Source: Paraphaeosphaeria minitans
Lineage: Eukaryota; Ascomycota; Dothideomycetes; Pleosporales; Didymosphaeriaceae
DNA: 64,000 nucleotides
Direction of reading: 5' to 3'
NCBI GenBank assembly: GCA_015832175.1
Contig: WJXW01000007.1
Span: forward strand, 1,736,001-1,800,000
The translations under genes and the position numbers were made by a program. Shown here in pieces: positions 995 to 61,561 of the stretch; the stretch's first letter is position 1; every line of letters starts with the position of its first letter. The notes under the pieces were generated by a model. The model was not told where the DNA came from. It was given only the letters and a program-made list of their open reading frames with translations, and searched no databases.

Positions 995-3900
995 ATGGAC
1001 GACTTGGCGATGAATCTCGATGCCCTGAAGCTTGCGGAGCGGCTGCATGGGGCGCGAGAAGGGGAGTACTGGTTGCATCTGGACGCAGAGGGTCCTTTGG
1101 AGAAATATCCAGGTGAGTTTGTTCCGATGATGCGAAATCCATCGTGCAGTGGATGCTGATGATGGGGGGTTGCAGCGAAGCAACATGCGCGCCGGGTGCG
1201 TGAGCGCCTGGACGTGGCCGAGGGCTTGATCTACCTCCCTGGTGCGCCAGCAAGAAGCAATGAGGATAGCGACATGCCTGCGCCATTTCGCCAGCGTCGC
1301 TATTTCTACTATTTGAGCGGTTGCAACGAAACAAGCTGTCAATTGGCGTATGACATCAGACGAGATATTCTCACCTTGTTCATTCCGCGTATCAACCCGG
1401 ATCGCGTTGTTTGGAATGGCCGAAGCTCAACTCCCGCAGAGGCCATGGACAAGTACGATATCGACGAAGTTTTCCACACGGATCAGGTGGAGGCCTGGAT
1501 ACATGACTGGTTCCTTCACTACCGACATGATCAACAACTCTATCTCCTGCACAAGGAACAGACACCACCGTTGCGAATTCCCTGGCCCGTGGACTGCACT
1601 TCGTTGCAGCCTGCGATGAATCAGTGTCGGATGGTCAAAGATGACCATGAGATCAAATTGATTCGCAAGGCGAACGACATCTCGTCCAAAGCGCACAAGC
1701 AGATCCTTGCCAACATTACCAAATTTCACAACGAAGCCCAAGTCGAAGGCCAGTTTCTCAACACGTGCGTCTCGCATCAAGCAAAGCAACAAGCCTACGA
1801 CATCATTGCAGCCTCGGGGCCAAATGCTGGCACTCTGCACTACGATGCCAATAATGAAGACTTTGAGGACCGACAACTTATGTGTCTGGATGCTGGATGT
1901 GAATACGAGCTATACGCATCCGACATCACACGCACATTCCCTCTCTCTACATCTTGGCCCTCGAAAGAGGCCGAGAACATTTACAAGCTCGTTGAACGTA
2001 TGCAAGAAGCCTGTATCCAGAAGCTAGGTCCAGGCGTCCGGTACTTGGATCTTCATGTCCTGGCGCATCAGATTGCCATTGACGGCTTGCTAAAACTTGG
2101 TTTACTGCATAACGGCACACGAGAGGAGATATTCAAGGCGGGGACCAGCAAGGCTTTCTTTCCGCATGGTCTAGGCCACCATGTTGGGTTGGAAGTGCAC
2201 GATGTAGGCCAACAGGAGCTGATGAGCTTGTACAAGCATCCTAAGTACGGCAAGGTGAATTTTCCCGCTCGGACAGTGCAGCCGCGGATGCTGACGAATC
2301 GCAGGTCCCTTCACTATATGCTGAGGATTTCCATCTGTCTGTCTACGACAAGAAACAGTGTATGGCCCCAACAGATCCCCAGAGCCCACATCTAGAAGAG
2401 GGTAACGTGGTTACTGTCGAGCCGGGAATGTAAGATATGACTTGCAAAACCGACCGCAGAAGTGAGGACTGACTGAAGAATTTTAGCTACTTCTCCGCAT
2501 ACGCTTTCAGCCACTTCTATCTACCATCTCCAGTGCACTCTAGATACATCAATACCGAGGTACTCTATAGATACTTTCCAGTAGGAGGGGTTCGGATCGA
2601 GGACGACATCCTCATTACTTCAAAAGGCTATGAGAATCTCACCACCGCGCCAAAGGGCGATGCTATGTTCGCTGTCATCAGAGGGCAGCCCACAGGCCCC
2701 ACTTTCAAGTCTCGCGACACGAGGATGGACACCCTAGACGAGCCACTTCGTCGTGCGCCGGGTATCTCAAGACGTGTGGCGGATCTTTTGGTAAACCCCG
2801 TTTCCCGAGCTGCCACAGAACCTCTTGCCACTGCACGAAGAATAAACGTGGAAGAGGACCCGGCCTTCCAGGATCACTGGCTCTTCAATGATCCACAGAA
2901 AACCGCTCCATGTACCCAAGATGAGAGAAGAGAGATGCCTGCCCAGACTGGGCATCATGCCGTCTCGCAAGATAACCATTTGCCTCTGTGCGGTACTCCT
3001 TCTGCAGGTGTCTTACACATGTACATGGGCTGGGAGAATCAAGTACGAAATAACACGGCTTCTCCTTATCTTGGGATCGATATCAAGGCTCAAGTGCAGA
3101 GATGCCAACAGTGCATTATTCTTTTTGAGACAGTCGACCGCTTGAGGGCTACTCTAAGTCGCTCGACGAGGACCTCGGCAACGACTTCACCGAGCCTTGG
3201 GACCGGCGACTTTGAGTGCCGAAGAAGTAATGAACCAGTACCGGCCACTAGGAATCGATCGGTTGCCCCAGTGGGGCCTAAAGTACCAGAGATGCGACAA
3301 ATCACCCCATTGCCATCGAAAGATTTTGCGAAAGGGACGCTGCGTGAGCTCTCAGCTCCAAAAAAAGAGATACCATCGCCTTCCACCATACAATGTCGCG
3401 GAATGATCAACAACAACACCTCCACTCTACCGCAAGCGAAGACACAACGACGTTCTGTGACCTTCGATAGCATTCATGCAGCATCACGCCCCCAGTCGCT
3501 TGCGGCTCCTCCAGAATACCTTCCAGTGCCCAGTGACTGGTACACCGAATCCCCGCATCCTATGACACTTGCGCAAAACACGCGAACAGACCTTCCCGTG
3601 CACAACCCTTCTGAACCACCAAGAACCACTTCTTCCGTCATCCCAGAGCCTGATCAAACCTCCCAGTGGAACGTCACAAATCTTCCAAGGCACGCCTCGA
3701 AGCCACAACCTCCCTTACCAGAGGCATGGGCGCCTATCGTACAAAGGCAGAGGATGTCGACCAATGTCCTCGCCCGAAGAAGCCTCTCTGCAGCAGCTGA
3801 GCGTGGACACCACACGCACCCGACCGAGTCTCCGCACCGCCCCGACCCGCGCCCTTCGCTGCCAAACCTGCATCAAGGCCCGCCGCTGCAGGCGGCGGCG

Positions 3901-4260
3901 ACGACCACGCGAGTCCGACACGACACCGCTCCGTTGCGAAGCCAGGGTCCAGCCTCGCAGACTCGCCTATTCGTGTGCATGCCGGACGTGTCTTCGCACG
4001 AACACGGGCACGAGCACGAGCATGACGTGGATCACAGACGCTCGACGGGCAGCGCGCTCGGAGTTTCCGTCCGAGGTGGCATCTTGCGCGACGTCCACGT
4101 CCAAGCCCCGCTCGGCAGCCAGGCCATCTCCCACTGGAACGAACAGCGCCGGCGCCAGCACCAGCACATCGAGAGACTCGAGAGAGACTCGAGGCCGTTG
4201 CACGGCGGCTCCAGATTCGGTGGGGAGGAGCTTCCGGGCGTAGACTACGCGCGCTGGTGA
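995..4260 (+). CDS. pepP: Xaa-Pro aminopeptidase (M24B) with long disordered C-terminal extension
   Basis: Metallopeptidase that removes an N-terminal residue next to proline. Introns at 1113-1175, 2255-2304 and 2430-2486 join four exons into 1031 residues; the third intron restores the family motif VEPGIYF. An N-terminal creatinase-like domain ([18 protein letters not shown]) is followed by the pita-bread domain. All five metal ligands are present: D278, D289, H374 (HGLGHHVG), E438 (EPGI) and E479 (RIEDD). The family normally ends near residue 500-600. Here the frame continues about 520 residues further, rich in Pro, Ser, Arg, His and Thr, with a His/Glu-rich stretch ([10 protein letters not shown]). 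The start [11 protein letters not shown] lies 39 codons before the first intron. The catalytic part is certain. The tail is open in frame but has no recognisable domain; an undetected intron or earlier true end is possible. Confidence 0.88.
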
Positions 4261-18558: not shown

Positions 18559-20388
18559 TCAGTACTGCGGATTTTGTCCATATCCTTGAACCCCTTGGTA
18601 ACCCTGGTCTCCTCCATAGCCCGGGTTCTCCCGATATTCGCCCTGTGCGTGCCCATATACACCACCCTGCTGGTAGCCCTGATTGATTTCGTGCCTCTGG
18701 CCGTGTTGGTAGCCTTGCTCGTGCTGGTAGCTCTGATCACCCGGATATCCTCCGCTCGTGGGATAGTTCTGGGGCTGCTGATAGCCGTGATCCTGATTGT
18801 ACCCTTGCGGTTGGCTTGACTGGGATTGAGGCAGTTGGTGTTGTTGATACGGCTGCTGGTATCCAGGGCGGTAGTCTTGGCGTTGGTCCTGCTCCTGGTG
18901 GTACTCATGCTGCTGTTCGGGTCCCGAGCTCTGGTACTGAGAGTTGTTGTCGCTACGGTAGTCTTGACGGTACTGGGACTGGGCGGGATGAATGTACTCC
19001 TGCTGTTGATGTGCTTGTCCACCATGTTGTTCTTGAGTTGCCGGTCTGTCGTATCCTCCCTGCGCAGGAGCAGTATTTTGTCCGAGTTGGACTCCAGCTG
19101 TTGGCGCACCTACACTGACACCCTCATTTCCAATATCATCAGGGACACTGATCTTCACATTGGGAAGGTACCGTTGCACCTTCTGCTCCACAATGTTTTG
19201 CACGAATACCCAGCTCTCGCGCTCGAACTTGCGATGGCCGCCGTTGACTACACCTAAGATGTTCTCTCGCAGGCTCTCCTGTACTTTTTTGATCAGACCT
19301 CGAATCTTGTCAAGAAGCTTGGCCTTGATATCGTCGCCGAAGCCCCGGTCCGCGTTTGGCTCCGCATCGCGGTCCAGCTGCGCATCGAAGGGATTGCCGC
19401 CCAAAATCTTCTCCAAAGGACGTTGGAATTGAGCGGGGAGCAACTCGAACAACTGCCTCTCAATCGCGCCCAGGATCTCCCTGAACTCGAGGCGCACTTC
19501 GCGGTGAACTTTCGCAAGACCGGTGCTGAGCTTATCGCTGATGACCTTCGAGAAGCCGCCGCTTCGTTCATCGCTGTTGTCGCTTTGTGCGCGCTCGTCA
19601 AAACCCCTAGATGACTCTTCGTTTGAATGCTTCTTTCCGAATAGACTACCGATGCCCTTGACAATATCTTTAACCTGGTCTTCGATCTCAGCTTTTGCAC
19701 CGTCGCCTAGATCTCGCGAGCTGGTATTGCCGCGAAGCCAGCGTTTGATGTGTTCGAGCGCTATACGTGTGAACTGTTCTGCGATTGTAGTGTGCTGTTC
19801 GCGCAGCTTAGCACCCACCTTCTCTTTGATTTCCGGGCTGATGAGGCGGGCTTTCATCTCGGGATCGCGGGAGACATCTTTAACAGTGTTGCTGATCACG
19901 CCGAGCAGCCCATCAAGTTGAAACCCCGCACCGCCTGAGCTGTTCCTGTTATCATTCAATTGGTCCTGCACAACGTCCAGGGCTGAAGCAAGAAAGCCTC
20001 TGGCTCCGGAGCCTCTGGATGACTCCACCCCACGCGACTGTATCTCTCTAGAGCCATCCCGACCTTCGGTGATGTTAAAGATATCGCGGAGGTCGTCTCC
20101 GGCTTCTTCAGAGATCTTGCCGAAGTTACGCGTCAACTTGGCAATCTCATCGGCGAAAGGCAACGACTGGCCGCCATACGCATCCGGAGCTGTGTCGTTC
20201 AGGTCTCCCCGCGATCTGTCACTGTTCGAATCCTTATTGAAGAGCGAGCGGAACGCGTCAATGACCTGTTCTTCGAGACTGTCGATGGTCTTCTGCTGAA
20301 AGACATCAAGCTCCGCGGCAACGCGGGGCTGGATTTGTGGAGCCAAAGAATCCACGTACTCATCAACCTTTTTGTACACGACCTCCAT
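18559..20388 (-). CDS. conserved-looking hypothetical protein with prion-like Q/Y/G-rich tail
   Basis: Intronless, 609 residues, function not recognised. Residues 1-430 are rich in charged amphipathic helices (KKVDEYVDSLAPQIQPRVAAE, EIKEKVGAKLREQH, AKLLDKIRGLIKKVQESL) with no hydrophobic segment or signal peptide, so it is probably soluble or membrane-associated. From about residue 435 the composition switches sharply to Gln, Tyr, Gly, His and Pro with repeats of the type YQQ, GYQ, QGYQH and YGGDQGYQG. This resembles low-complexity domains that form condensates. The start MEVVYKKVDEY is the first ATG in frame. Lon follows the same direction upstream. The reading frame and codon use leave little doubt that it is a gene; any role in condensate formation is inference. 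Confidence 0.75.
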   Translation of the reverse strand: MEVVYKKVDEYVDSLAPQIQPRVAAELDVFQQKTIDSLEEQVIDAFRSLFNKDSNSDRSRGDLNDTAPDAYGGQSLPFADEIAKLTRNFGKISEEAGDDLRDIFNITEGRDGSREIQSRGVESSRGSGARGFLASALDVVQDQLNDNRNSSGGAGFQLDGLLGVISNTVKDVSRDPEMKARLISPEIKEKVGAKLREQHTTIAEQFTRIALEHIKRWLRGNTSSRDLGDGAKAEIEDQVKDIVKGIGSLFGKKHSNEESSRGFDERAQSDNSDERSGGFSKVISDKLSTGLAKVHREVRLEFREILGAIERQLFELLPAQFQRPLEKILGGNPFDAQLDRDAEPNADRGFGDDIKAKLLDKIRGLIKKVQESLRENILGVVNGGHRKFERESWVFVQNIVEQKVQRYLPNVKISVPDDIGNEGVSVGAPTAGVQLGQNTAPAQGGYDRPATQEQHGGQAHQQQEYIHPAQSQYRQDYRSDNNSQYQSSGPEQQHEYHQEQDQRQDYRPGYQQPYQQHQLPQSQSSQPQGYNQDHGYQQPQNYPTSGGYPGDQSYQHEQGYQHGQRHEINQGYQQGGVYGHAQGEYRENPGYGGDQGYQGVQGYGQNPQY

Positions 20389-20871
20389 ATTTGGATACGC
20401 AAAGGATTTACGAGCTTGAATTCACTCGTGGCTGTGCTTGTGTGGCGTCGGGTAGGATCCGGGGGACGTTAAGTGGTGTGTACCGGAGTTGGACATGCCC
20501 ATGGGTAGGTACCGGTATGCTATGACGACACAGCACACAGACCACCTCTATCCCACATCTTGGCGAACGTAAGCAAAAACCATCTGTATCATATATGGAT
20601 CGTTGCAGAAAGGTGAGTTTGACAATTCTACGGAGGACCACGTCACACTTATAAACTCGAGCATACGTAGTATCAACAATATAACCGTATAGATCTACCG
20701 TACATGCAGCGAGCTCAGAATCATCCAGGCTGGCAAGGTCTGTCTACATGCTTAGAGAAGGGTTGCAATGTCGTTATTCCATATGCAAGCAAATGCCAAA
20801 GAATTACGCCTTATATGCGATGCTCATCGTCAACACTGTACATATCTTACACATCTTCGCTCAACGATCGC
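20389..20871. other. intergenic between Lon and the Q/Y/G-tail gene
   Basis: Promoter of the 18.6-20.4-kb gene plus the 3' flank of Lon. It contains GGGTAGGTACCGG near 20505. No gene is seen. Confidence 0.55.
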
Positions 20872-27301: not shown

Positions 27302-28430
27302 ATGCACTTCTCGCTGGCTCTCTTGATCCCGTTCTTCTCTCTATCGTGCAGTCGCCCAACAAAGAGTACGCCCAGCAGCAACAAATGGCAAACAAAACCA
27401 CTACAGGACGCAAACGGCCTGGTCACGGCTGGCTTTCGCGGTCTATCCGTGGTGTCCGACAAGATCGTCTGGGTCTCGGGAACCAACAACTCTGTCTACC
27501 GAACTACTGATGGGGGAACCTCCTGGAGCGACCTCAAAATTACACACAAAGAGACTTTCACCAATGCAACAGGTACATACCCTGTTATCTTGGATTTCCG
27601 AGATATTGAAGCCTTTTCTGCTCGCGTTGCTGTTGCTATGGCGGCTGGCGATGGTAGCCTATATCAAACGAGCGTGTGGCATACAGAAGATGGAGGCAAA
27701 CATTGGCGCAAATCGAGAACACCAAAGAATCCAATTTTTCTACGACAGCCTTGCTTGGGAGAACAAGCATCACGGATTGCTATTGCAAGACCCTGCAAAT
27801 GCAACGGACGGGAGCATGGGTCTTCTGGAAACCCACGACGGCGGTAAGAGCTGGAGAGAAGTGACAACTACAGATCTGGAAGCCAAAGGTCAAGCAGCGT
27901 TCGCTGCGAGTGGTACATGCGTCGCCTTCGTTTCTGGGCGGTGGTATATCGTCGCCGGAGGTAGCCCCGATCCTTCGCGAGTTTTCCGGAGTTCGAATGG
28001 ACGTAGTTGGAAAGACGCGAACACCAGCCTCGTGGGCGATCCGAACGTCGAGCTCGGATATTCCGGGTACGGGATGAACTCGGTCGCATTTCGCGATTCT
28101 CGGAATGGTCTCGTCGTTGGGGGTAGCTTCAGCAGCGGTGTACCTGCCAGCAAAAACAATGTGGCATATACTCGCAATGGTGGAGTAACTTGGACCTCGT
28201 CAAAACCAGCGCTGGAGTATCGTTCTGCAGTATCATGGCTTCCGGGTAGATCGAAGCTGGCAGTAGCTGCCGGCCAAACCGGCACGAACTTGACACGGGA
28301 TGGAGGCGCTACATGGGAAGGCCTGGTAGATGAGCACCACAACGAATTTTTTGCCGTGCAGTGTATCAAAGGCGGGGTATGCTGGGCATCTGGACGCAAA
28401 GGCGCCATCGGCCGCATTCAAATCAAATAG
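27302..28430 (+). pseudogene. secreted BNR/Ycf48-like beta-propeller protein, frame broken
   Basis: The product would be an extracellular beta-propeller of the sialidase/Ycf48-like type with Asp-box repeats. A signal peptide (MHFSLALLIPFFSLS) is followed by TAGFRGLSVVSDKIVWVSGT and repeated S/T-x-D-G-G-x-x-W motifs: TTDGGTSW, HTEDGGKHW, ETHDGGKSW, TRNGGVTW, TRDGGATW. After HTEDGGKHWRKS the reading frame must shift by one base to continue with FYDSLAWENKHHGLLLQDP. The switch falls at or near the run of five T's at about 27736-27741. No GT-AG intron spans it. Each half is otherwise intact to the stop at 28430, so the break is recent or an assembly error. It is convergent with the flavoenzyme gene, with 103 bp between the stops. 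Enzymatic role unknown. Confidence 0.75.
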
Positions 28431-49635: not shown

Positions 49636-51945
49636 ATGGCGGCTGGAGAGTTCAGTCGCTTGCTCATTTCGCACTGGCGCGATTTGCATGAGAAGCTTCT
49701 CTCACAGGACGAGGAGATCGTCATTGATGGACGCAGCCTTAGTATTGCGTCCGTCGTCGCCTGCGCTAGGTAGGTCTGCACAAAGAGATCCAGGCCACCG
49801 CTAATCTGGCATTAGGTACGGACAGGATGTAGTTTTTAGCGAAGAGATGTTGGAGACGATACGGAGACACACCGAAGCCAAATACGGCGAGTTAGTGGAA
49901 GGTGAATCTTTGTCAGGTATCTAAAGGTCCATTCCAATTGATATGCGCTTACTGATTATAGTAGGCTCATTCAGACCTTTGAGTTTTGATAGCGCTGCTC
50001 CTATACGCGTATCAGCAATCGAAATCGTGCAGCGAGACATGATACGTGATAGCCATTACGCGATTCTGTCTGGCGAGACTGAAATCGACATATCGAATGC
50101 CACTCGCGCGTTCTCTTCGGCAATTCCGTTACTTGATCCTATTGAAAACACTACCATGCCGGAATCGTGGGTCAGGGCGCAGATGCTGATTCGAGCGAAC
50201 TCGTTGGCGTACCCGAGTGTTGGTGTGCGGCCAATTCTACTGGAAAAGATCACTGAACTCCTCAATATGGACGTGGTTCCTAGGGTCCCACTGCGAGGCT
50301 CAATATCCGGCGTTGGGGATATGGTTAATCAGTCCTATGTTGCAAGTGTGCTTGCCGGTAAACCCTCTGTACAAGCCTGGATTGGAGACCGCATCCAAGG
50401 CGGGCGCAGATTGGTACCTGCCGATGAAGCCCTGACGTATGCAGAAATTGAGCCGATAGAAGTGCGTGCAAAAGAGGGCATGGCGCTGTTAGTCGGAACG
50501 TCATCATCTTCGGGCGTAAGCGCGCTTGCAGTACATGAGGCGTTTTGCCTTGCTGCAGCGGTGCAGGTACTGACAGCAATGGCCGCGGAGGCATTATGTG
50601 CTGCCGACATGTGCTTCCATCCTCTGTTATCTGAGCTTCGTCCACATCAAGGACAATCCGAGTGTGCAATAAACTTACGATCATTCCTTGAAGGGTCTAA
50701 GCTCATTATTTGGGACTCGGCCAAAGAAGAATGTACGCGACTCCCAGGTACGGAGTCGATACGTCTTAGACAGAAACTTCGTACCCTAGCCCTACTTTAT
50801 TGACTTACACTGACTCTCTAGTCATGGCCCGATCCGATAAATATCCCGTCAGAGCCTCCCCCCAATGGATAGGTCCTTGTCTAGAAGACCTGCAACTTGC
50901 CCACTCCCAAATTATGATAGAAATTAATTCTGCGACCGATACTCCTCTGATAGATCAATCAGGCAAGATGATTCATGGAGCAAATTTCATGGCGAAGTCG
51001 GTAACTTCAGCAATGGAGAAAATTCGCCAAGGATGTCAGAGTCTGGGACAGATCATGTTCGCGCAATGCACCGAGATCATTAATCCGACGACGAGCAAAG
51101 GTCTTGCACCGTTCTTGGTTGTCGACGAGCCTAGCCAATCCGGTCTCTTCAAGGGGACCGATACCATGGTCGCCAGTCTCCAAAGTGAGCTAGGATTCTT
51201 GGCTAATGCAGTGGGATCCAACGTCCAGTTCGCAGAAATGGGTTTCCAGGCCATCAACTCTCTGGCCCTTATATCGGCCCGATACACCCTTACCTCACTC
51301 GACATTCTTGCCCAGCTGGCAGCCGCACATCTAGTCGCTCTGTGCCAAGCGCTGGACTTGCGGGCACTCCATATGCAGTTCCTTTTCGCTCTGGCTCCAA
51401 AGTTCAAGTTGCTCACACGCCGTTGCCTTAGCGAGTGTATCCCGCCTACCACCCCATCTAGCGATGGGCCTGGGACCGGAATAGCATATGAGCTGTGGCT
51501 CACGCTCTCTGAACGGATCAACACAACTACACACCTCGACTCGCACTCACGCTTCTCTCTAGCCCTCGACTATCTACAAACTATCTTCCTCCGCTACTTG
51601 CCGGCGAACTCTCGCTCTTTAGAAGCAGTACAACAGTGGAATGCCGACTGCGTTCATGAGGCGTGTGCGACCTACATTGCAGTGCGCACTCGCTATCTCG
51701 CGAATCCGGATGCGACACCTATCCTAGGTAAAGCCAGCAAGCGATGCTACAACTTCGTAAGGAGGAAACTAGAGGTGCCATTCGTGGGAAACGATTACTT
51801 CCGCAACGCCGAGAGGGACGATGGGACGAGACTGGGCAGCAGAGTCAAATACAAAACCATGGGAAGCATGAATACTGCAGTCTACGACAGTTTTAGGAAC
51901 GGGGGATTTTATGCTGTGGTTGTGGATTGCTTCGATGATGTCTGA
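49636..51945 (+). CDS. aromatic amino acid lyase (PAL/HAL) family protein lacking the MIO triad
   Basis: Homologue of phenylalanine/histidine ammonia-lyases. Introns at 49770-49815, 49902-49961 and 50748-50821 give 709 residues, normal for fungal PAL. Family blocks are plain: SWVRAQMLIRANSLAYPSVGVR, VPLRGSIS, RASPQWIGPCLEDL, EINSATDTPLID, HGANFMAKSVTSAMEK, KGTDTMVASLQSELGFLAN, and NSLALISARYT. However, the Ala-Ser-Gly that forms the MIO cofactor (family: GSISASGDL) is Gly-Val-Gly at residues 190-192 (GSISGVGDM), and the next DLSPLSY is DMVNQSY. The N-terminal loop that normally reads YGVTTGFG is SFRPLSF here (about 76-82), so the catalytic Tyr is gone too. The frame is intact. I infer a non-lyase or scaffold role, not a pseudogene; no activity can be assigned. 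Confidence 0.85.
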
Positions 51946-60005: not shown

Positions 60006-60175
60006 CTGCGCATGCCGAGTCAGACCGTGTTCTTGCAATATTAATATAATACCTCGTTCAGGCTTCACCTTGAACACTTTCGCATTTTCCCTTCTGCAAA
60101 TACCCTGCAGCGTCTCTTCTACTTACTACCGCACCCAGCAGCACTGAACCAGTACAATCCTGCAACTTCTCACCC

Positions 60176-61561
60176 ATGCCCATTCCGCACTACCGATCAG
60201 AGACCCCTTCCATGCCCACGACCGCACGGCCCATCAAGACAACCCAAGGCCACACGATATCCAAACCAACCTTCTTCCCAGAATCCACCTCACCCGGCCC
60301 TCGCCACCCGCCACTTATCCACCGCACGAACACCACAGCCTCCACCACCTCACAGGGCAGCAAAGTAGTCGACTACAGCGAGATATCCGGACCCTTCAGA
60401 GAAGCAGAAGTGTTTCGAAAGGGGCTGAGGCAACAGGGAAATCGGAACCAAACGCCGGATTACTTGCGCAACGGCGGAGGGTCGAAGAGAAAGAGTGGGG
60501 CGCTGGCGTCGAGTCCGCCCGTATCACCGATGAATGGGTCGCGATTTCACGAGAGATTCGACAAGCATGACGCAGTAGAGTGGAGCCCTGCGGCAGAAAA
60601 ACTAGAACGCCTTGACACCGATGACCGACCGGGTGGAAGTCACCAAGCACGGTTCAGCGATGTGAGTCTGAGCGACGAATTCCCTACCTCGCACAACGCA
60701 CATATCCGTAGCCCACGGGTCGCGGCTCCCCTCCGCCCACCACCTCCACCCCCACCTCACGCAGAACCTGCTCAACAGGATCCTTACTTTTGCATTCCGC
60801 CCTCGTCACGCGAAGGGTGTAGACCACGTACCTCATTAGTCCACAGGATCATGTCCCATATGGGCAAGAGTAAACGCAGGACCGCAAAGTACATCATGCT
60901 ATTCCTGCTTCTTCTTGTCGTCGCATTTCTCATCTACGTGTTCTTCCACAAAGTCCTGCCCGTTTACAGCAAGTTGCAGGATCTAAAGAATAAGCTAGCC
61001 ACCCTCGACGCCTTCAAAGATAAAGTTGTCGCAAAGCTGGGAGTCTGGCTCGACGATGGCAAAGAGCTAGTTGGAAATGTGAAAGATATGGTTGGTGACG
61101 GGGTAGACAGGCTCGTCGATGCGGCGAACAAGATGCTGGGCAAGGTGAGGGTGAACATTCCGCATGTAGACCTCGAACAGAGACGTCGTGCCAGGAGTGC
61201 GCGGGCTGTTATGGGTGAACATACTGGAAATACAAGCACCGCTTTGTCTACTCATATAGAGTTCGCGGAGGCCATGGCGGCTCGATTCGCGCTGGAGTCG
61301 AGGCAAAGCTCTAGATCCGCGTCAAACACGGTAAACTTCAAGTCAGTGCACGGGTGTGATATGGGCAGGCACTTCACCAGCACCGCCAGACCGAGGGCAT
61401 ACATCCCCCTACCATTCTCACTCTTGCAAACTTGGCGAAAAGGGTGCGTAGTGTGTCTTCCGTTGATGAAGGTGGCGGAACAGGTGCTGAGGGATGCGAT
61501 ACGTCTACAGTCAAGGTTACGACAACAATGTGGCTGCCTGTTACGCCGACCAACGAGGTAA
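60176..61561 (+). CDS. hypothetical single-pass membrane protein
   Basis: A 461-codon uninterrupted frame. Residues 1-235 are disordered, rich in Pro, Ser, Arg and Thr, with a proline run (RPPPPPPPHAEP). A transmembrane helix (YIMLFLLLLVVAFLIYVFF, about 238-256) is followed by an amphipathic helical region (SKLQDLKNKLATLDAFKDKV, DDGKELVGNVKDMVGDGVDR) to about residue 350. The last 100 residues look less protein-like, so the true end may differ through an intron near 61190-61330. No family recognised. It starts 170 bp after the preceding gene on the same strand. Confidence 0.65.
   Translation: MPIPHYRSETPSMPTTARPIKTTQGHTISKPTFFPESTSPGPRHPPLIHRTNTTASTTSQGSKVVDYSEISGPFREAEVFRKGLRQQGNRNQTPDYLRNGGGSKRKSGALASSPPVSPMNGSRFHERFDKHDAVEWSPAAEKLERLDTDDRPGGSHQARFSDVSLSDEFPTSHNAHIRSPRVAAPLRPPPPPPPHAEPAQQDPYFCIPPSSREGCRPRTSLVHRIMSHMGKSKRRTAKYIMLFLLLLVVAFLIYVFFHKVLPVYSKLQDLKNKLATLDAFKDKVVAKLGVWLDDGKELVGNVKDMVGDGVDRLVDAANKMLGKVRVNIPHVDLEQRRRARSARAVMGEHTGNTSTALSTHIEFAEAMAARFALESRQSSRSASNTVNFKSVHGCDMGRHFTSTARPRAYIPLPFSLLQTWRKGCVVCLPLMKVAEQVLRDAIRLQSRLRQQCGCLLRRPTR

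Follow-up and report, generated by a model that had tools for sequence, protein, structure and literature searches.

What does a gene encode when the fold of a phenylalanine ammonia-lyase (PAL) is kept and the residues that make it a lyase are not? PALs are well studied enzymes. One PAL has been approved as a drug for phenylketonuria (PMC6987202). The question is raised by a gene of Paraphaeosphaeria minitans at positions 49636-51945 on the forward strand of the window, by which we mean the whole stretch of 64,000 nucleotides analyzed (contig WJXW01000007.1, positions 1,736,001 to 1,800,000). The gene has three introns and encodes a PAL homolog of 708 residues. Judging by sequence and predicted fold, the product is probably a pseudoenzyme, i.e., a protein in which the fold is kept and essential catalytic residues are lost.

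Active-site residues lost and kept

The first-pass annotation had reported Gly-Val-Gly in place of Ala-Ser-Gly (ASG) at 50309-50317, together with loss of the catalytic loop Tyr. The Gly-Val-Gly (GVG) triad was confirmed and is read in frame within a complete PF00221 homolog. Both losses stood; the list was incomplete, one Gln and three Asn residues being changed as well. Residues were tabulated on P0001, the P. minitans database record that differs from the window gene at one residue, and were provisionally matched to published active-site numbering by motif and by alignment. The active-site Tyr, the ASG triad, and the active-site Asn, Gln, Asn, and Asn were replaced by Ser78, Gly194-Val195-Gly196, Val255, Ser339, Thr375, and Phe476, respectively, and His109, Asp340, Tyr342, Arg345, Lys445, Glu473, and Gln477 were unchanged.

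ASG has been described as strictly conserved and replacement of its Ser by Ala as lowering activity more than thousand-fold (PMC3903478); another source states that activity needs the loop Tyr (Tyr110) and that the carboxylate is held by two Asn and one Arg (PMC9002059). With no Ser between the two Gly, the 4-methylideneimidazole-5-one (MIO) electrophile cannot form, and the loop Tyr and Asn that would serve ammonia elimination are gone; given the losses of the triad, the loop Tyr, and pocket residues, a MIO-based lyase reaction by this protein is very unlikely. In the carboxylate-binding set, Arg345 was kept and Val255 and Thr375 stood in place of the two Asn (matched provisionally, by motif). 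Because these two carboxylate-holding Asn are changed (two of three residues), the earlier suggestion that the protein binds aromatic amino acids in the old manner was weakened. As the first and third Gly of Gly-x-Gly were strictly kept, a backbone ring lacking the methylidene group may still form there.

The protein belonged to PF00221, matching the curated profile and sharing the PAL fold (as a predicted single chain), but by sequence it was without ASG, the loop Tyr, and a complete Asn/Asn/Arg set, the marks of a MIO-dependent ammonia-lyase. Against the PAL equivalog TIGR01226, P0001 scored 441 bits, below the cut-off of 519.15, versus 573.2 for an intact sister and 576.2 for the intact paralog of the same genome. 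The name phenylalanine ammonia-lyase that such proteins of these fungi carry in databases is probably wrong. In the predicted P0001 chain, confidence was low at the inner loop (residues 70-90); it was likewise low in the loop of intact P0021 (80-89), so the loop confidence of P0001 is uninformative as to whether function was lost. Of these two chains, only P0001 had confidence below 50 in region 468-480.

Clade and order of losses

Relatives comprised the best 120 of 1011 matching proteins, of which 117 cover the triad; P0028, P0029, and P0063 are fragments without the triad site and were left out of triad counts (P0063 is in no tree). ASG was absent in 18 of these 117 proteins. Two further searches listed 164 proteins, with ASG in 163, the other (P0163, 481 residues) being a fragment without the site. 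Of the 120 listed proteins, 45 entered a quick tree, together with two others, and 28 entered a careful tree, together with one other. All ASG-less rows placed in the trees fell within one clade, of 24 rows in the quick tree (support of 99 by the Shimodaira-Hasegawa-like approximate likelihood ratio test) and of 20 rows in the careful tree (support, 100/99). Besides GVG, triads of AAG, GSG, GAG, GLG, and GIG occurred in the later branches of the clade.

The clade species looked up were all Pleosporales. The main ASG-less group (100/99) was preceded by the branches of Massariosphaeria (98/96 above the fork that separates it from the others) and Corynespora (92/84), both of which retain ASG although the loop Tyr and one Asn are gone. 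Rows with AAG, GSG, and GAG came next (their mutual order is not settled by the tree), followed by GVG with GLG and GIG. If the intact rows are taken to represent the ancestral condition, loss of the Tyr and Asn came first and the triad changed later. Among named species with GVG, those looked up (P. minitans, Paraconiothyrium brasiliense, Bimuria, Byssothecium, Massarina, and Periconia macrospinosa) belong to the suborder Massarineae, and Corynespora, Massariosphaeria, and Pleomassaria are classified outside it, so that the branching of the gene agrees with inheritance along the species lineages. Lojkania, Aaosphaeria, and two Phaeosphaeria-type records made up the intact sister group. Such a conserved MIO-less clade with living intermediates allows the order in which catalysis was lost, and the site of new constraint, to be tested.

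The careful tree required at least two changes of ASG state, one of which fell in Pleomassaria. A sister branch was formed by Pleomassaria siparia P0020 and metagenome row P0022, with Lys changed to Gln, Glu to Ala, and Asn to Thr in both; Gly-Phe-Gly was present in Pleomassaria only and not in P0022. As read from these residues, the Pleomassaria branch departed from the usual lyase site separately, as a second such event. The Pleomassaria loop looks mis-spliced and was left out of the argument on the order of losses; P0016 and P0017 have odd loop models, and many metagenome rows are without first exons, the loop being visible in 10 or 11 of 18 Gly-x-Gly (G-x-G) rows. In a Kalmusia and in Didymosphaeria variabile, which belong to the family of P. 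minitans, the intact paralog was listed and no GVG gene appeared under their names among the best 120; the distribution of the GVG gene may be patchy.

Selection, conservation, and function

As a clock control, identity of the window gene between species was compared with that of the intact paralog between the same pairs. Levels for the gene and the paralog, respectively, were 80.6 and 78.1% for P. minitans and Bimuria, 61.0 and 59.6% for P. minitans and Periconia digitata, 61.6 and 60.6% for P. minitans and P. macrospinosa, 62.7 and 62.8% for Bimuria and P. digitata, 62.3 and 60.4% for Bimuria and P. macrospinosa, and 84.6 and 70.6% for P. digitata and P. macrospinosa. Mean identity over the four species was 68.8% for the gene versus 66.2% for the paralog (the 95% interval of the difference includes zero), with 0 to 5 gap positions in pairs of the gene versus 14 to 65 in pairs of the paralog, to which one long paralog model adds. 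Frame and length were retained in named species down to approximately 60% identity.

What differed between the two genes was where conservation lay. In the four matched species, identity over residues 1-50 was 79.7% for the gene versus 37.6% for the paralog (difference, 42.1; 95% interval, 29 to 55), and over residues 501-708 it was 66.4 versus 48.8% (difference, 17.7; 95% interval, 11 to 24). In the core (residues 51-500), the gene was less conserved than the paralog (68.6 versus 76.9%; difference, −8.3; 95% interval, −12.6 to −4.0). The same pattern was found in seven GVG proteins compared with four intact sisters, overall identity being 71.1 and 70.4%. Conservation of the segment MAAGEFSRLLISHWRDLHEKLL, encoded in exon 1, was higher within the clade than among intact relatives. 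An N terminus of the form MA(A/S)GEFSR...SHWRE was common to the ASG-keeping intermediates and nearly so in Pleomassaria, which places the origin of this segment no later than the loss of the Tyr. Among 56 intact proteins, 152 columns showed conservation of at least 95%; of these, G-x-G rows kept 79, partly lost 50, and had changed the remaining 23 in more than half of the rows. Residues newly fixed in the clade were Ser85 (11/11), Gly194 (16/16), and Ala286 (18/18), and these, together with the moved conservation, are unlike what is expected for plain decay. By the proxy of same-species divergence comparable to that of the intact paralog, and of new fixed residues, the protein appears to be kept by selection. 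The losses being clade-wide, the earlier idea of a pseudoenzyme kept for another function was thereby well supported at the level of sequence.

We consider it probable, with some reserve, that this pseudoenzyme is kept as a PAL-shaped, noncatalytic binding protein. It would fold as a PAL-like oligomer and act by binding, as a scaffold or regulator of a partner that it might contact with its conserved N-terminal segment and its C-terminal domain. Of the old pocket, Arg, Tyr, Lys, Glu, and Gln are still present, and the rewritten loop would cap it, so a small ligand may still be held. The clade carries a signature of its own (an N terminus of the MA(A/S)GEFSR..(V/I)SHWRE type, a loop of the form R-x-x-S-(W/F/Y), G-x-G, and Ala286). 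A broader reading, which we hold only tentatively and regard as rather doubtful, is that a whole fungal PAL lineage turned into a non-lyase with its own signature, by steps visible in living species, and acquired an activity (binding or MIO-free chemistry) of a kind not known from the family.

Several observations weigh against retention as a binding protein. In comparisons with Lojkania (both genes intact), identities for the gene and paralog of the four species were 56.8/55.5, 56.3/58.7, 55.8/56.3, and 56.0/56.4%, i.e., the window gene was no more conserved than the paralog in three of four pairs. Root-to-tip distances in one tree were larger for GVG rows (0.55 to 0.75) than for intact sisters (0.34 to 0.50), with values of 0.74 for the GLG row, 0.81 for the GIG row, 0.42 to 0.48 for the two ASG-keeping intermediates, and 0.38 to 0.53 for AAG, GSG, and GAG rows. 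The longer GVG paths suggest that constraint is looser than in that sister group or that the change was adaptive; GVG rows changed faster than intact sisters and not faster than the intact paralog. The gene models of the relatives are automatic, and two of four paralog N termini look irregular, although intact sisters with regular N termini were only 46.7% alike over the first 50 residues. With Tyr, Arg, Lys, Glu, and Gln still in place, the protein may support other catalysis, and a hint of a pathway or partner was absent among the scanned neighboring frames.

That other catalysis could be a new, MIO-free enzyme in which Tyr342, Arg345, Lys445, Glu473, and Gln477 run another elimination or isomerization; ergothionase is a PAL-family enzyme that works without MIO. 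We regard this as unlikely, since conservation was lost precisely in the catalytic core. The middle residue of the triad (V, L, I, S, or A) and the former Asn position (V, I, A, T, or M) varied across the clade among hydrophobic or small residues, and the position of loop Ser78 was Lys or Thr in three rows; the former variation points to relaxed chemistry rather than to a new catalytic set.

Alternatively, the protein could be a helper subunit in a mixed tetramer with an active PAL, the dead chain either lending Tyr342 and Arg345 to the MIO site of a neighboring subunit or tuning its activity, as the first-pass annotation had proposed in outline. Conservation of the C-terminal domain is high, the one further PF00221 gene found in the genome is intact, and Bimuria and both Periconia species have both kinds. 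Each active site of the family is built from three subunits (PMC9002059). However, seven GVG proteins and four paralogs were on average alike at only 40.7% of the core and at approximately 26% of each end, and among the matches listed, an intact paralog was named in only 4 of 10 clade species and not for P. brasiliense, Byssothecium, Massarina, Corynespora, Massariosphaeria, or Pleomassaria, which weakens a helper role. This count draws on the best 120 proteins with one name per cluster and covers the PAL type of the P. minitans genome, and other PAL types may exist. Although possible, the mixed tetramer is rated here as quite improbable.

Decay toward a pseudogene would account for the loss of several catalytic residues, for the root-to-tip path being longer than in intact sisters, and for the 23 columns changed in most G-x-G rows. 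We give it very little credence, given the open frame of 708 residues with its length kept, a same-species divergence similar to that of the intact paralog with fewer gaps, and an N-terminal region tighter than in intact relatives. Instead, the gene is best read as encoding a retained binding protein.

Gene model, neighborhood, and known systems

The gene model of the first-pass annotation, with 709 residues and three introns, was right in the number of introns and in being full length and wrong at one junction. Among the splice combinations tried, 64 had an open frame; two of these gave 709 residues, and neither scored best. With intron 1 fixed, eight combinations of introns 2 and 3 were scored against the three nearest relatives, and introns at 49770-49815, 49917-49964, and 50733-50821 gave the top score against all three, with a 708-residue product identical to P. 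minitans database protein P0001 at 707 of 708 positions. Exon 1 (49636-49769) encodes residues 1-44 plus two bases of codon 45, including the N-terminal segment described above, and is followed by intron 1 (46 bases, GT-AG). Exon 2 (49816-49916) runs up to Ser78, the position of the catalytic loop Tyr, and the Gly codon that follows this lost Tyr is interrupted by intron 2 (48 bases, phase 1). Exon 3 (49965-50732) holds the changed inner loop, the MIO-site region with the GVG codons, and Val255 at an active-site Asn position; after intron 3 (89 bases, GT-AG), exon 4 with the stop (50822-51945) encodes the rest of the core, including the kept Tyr342, Arg345, Lys445, Glu473, and Gln477 and the changed Ser339, Thr375, and Phe476, and the C-terminal domain. 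All of these features are on the forward strand.

The loop had been read as SFRPLSF; loss of its Tyr stood, and the corrected loop is GESLSGSFRPLSFDSAAPIR, in which LYG is changed to LSG. In the intact paralog, too, the Gly codon directly after the loop Tyr (Y75-G76) is split by an intron in phase 1, and the Tyr-to-Ser reading is supported because this intron and intron 2 share place and phase. When 49636-51945 was searched for patterns in its three forward frames, TGFG, TGYG, SASG, and ASGD did not occur, the only YG-type matches there being YG*S and YGDT, and the loop motif was absent from residues 41-130 of the 64 open splice combinations; a hidden intact motif or alternative splicing was rejected, as none occurred in these frames or in the printed stretches of the 64 combinations. 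GVG is present in database proteins of P. minitans, P. brasiliense, and Bimuria and, with identical letters in three species, is no sequencing error. Although 709-residue models do carry a wrong junction, the chance that a gene-model or assembly artifact hides ASG and the Tyr loop is negligible, since neither motif is in any forward frame, exon 3 contains the GVG codons, away from junctions, in each of the 64 combinations, and the same letters recur in three species' proteins, with the P. minitans record coming from a different contig (57,146 bases).

The genome searched comprises 47.45 megabases in 30 contigs, with the window on contig 7, and at least two PF00221 genes were found in it, the window gene and an intact one on contig 4. 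The latter (G000:C4:453135-454409; L004:3858-6073) encodes 720 residues with ASG, the loop Tyr, and VNGT, has one intron, beside the loop Tyr, and gives a product 100% identical to a P. minitans database protein. Elsewhere in the family, P0283 of Cladorrhinum sp. PSN332 (1097 residues) joins PAL (PF00221) to a protein kinase (PF00069) by its precomputed domains, which may reflect either a genuine fusion or two genes annotated as one.

For the neighborhood, 30 of 64 nonoverlapping stop-to-stop frames of at least 110 residues were scanned against Pfam; two of the 64 are exons of the window gene itself, and as single frames were used, spliced genes may be missed. Matches over the cut-off were to aminopeptidase P, an importin-13-like protein, Lon, two major facilitator superfamily carriers, an M28 peptidase, and a RING protein. 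A biosynthetic cluster was rejected, as no nonribosomal peptide synthetase, polyketide synthase, cytochrome P450, or other cluster enzyme was found in the 30 scanned frames. A 367-residue frame at 27327-28427 (forward strand) had weak, below-cut-off BNR/Asp-box matches, and open frames of 595, 620, and 495 residues at 2473-4257 (forward), 18562-20421 (reverse), and 60074-61558 (forward) had no Pfam match.

A full-text literature search, mostly without subscription papers, found no description of a PAL-family pseudoenzyme or of a natural PAL clade without MIO. Compared with the PAL of Rhodotorula toruloides (1t6j/1y2m), the window protein is without Ala-Ser-Gly, the loop Tyr, and the active-site Asn, falls below the NCBI PAL cut-off, and has its conservation moved to both ends. 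Its nearest named intact kin among the matches listed (Lojkania, Aaosphaeria, and the two Phaeosphaeria-type records), which are 52 to 55% identical to it and sister to it in the tree, keep YGINTGFG, ASG, VNGT, and GNQ, whereas the window protein does not. The bacterial ergothionase (6s7j) shares its predicted fold and is 19% identical to it in a structural alignment; by sequence, the window protein is nearer to fungal PAL (E values of 3.2e-93 versus 8.5e-15). With pseudoenzymes in general, it has in common that catalytic residues are lost and that fold and conservation are kept.
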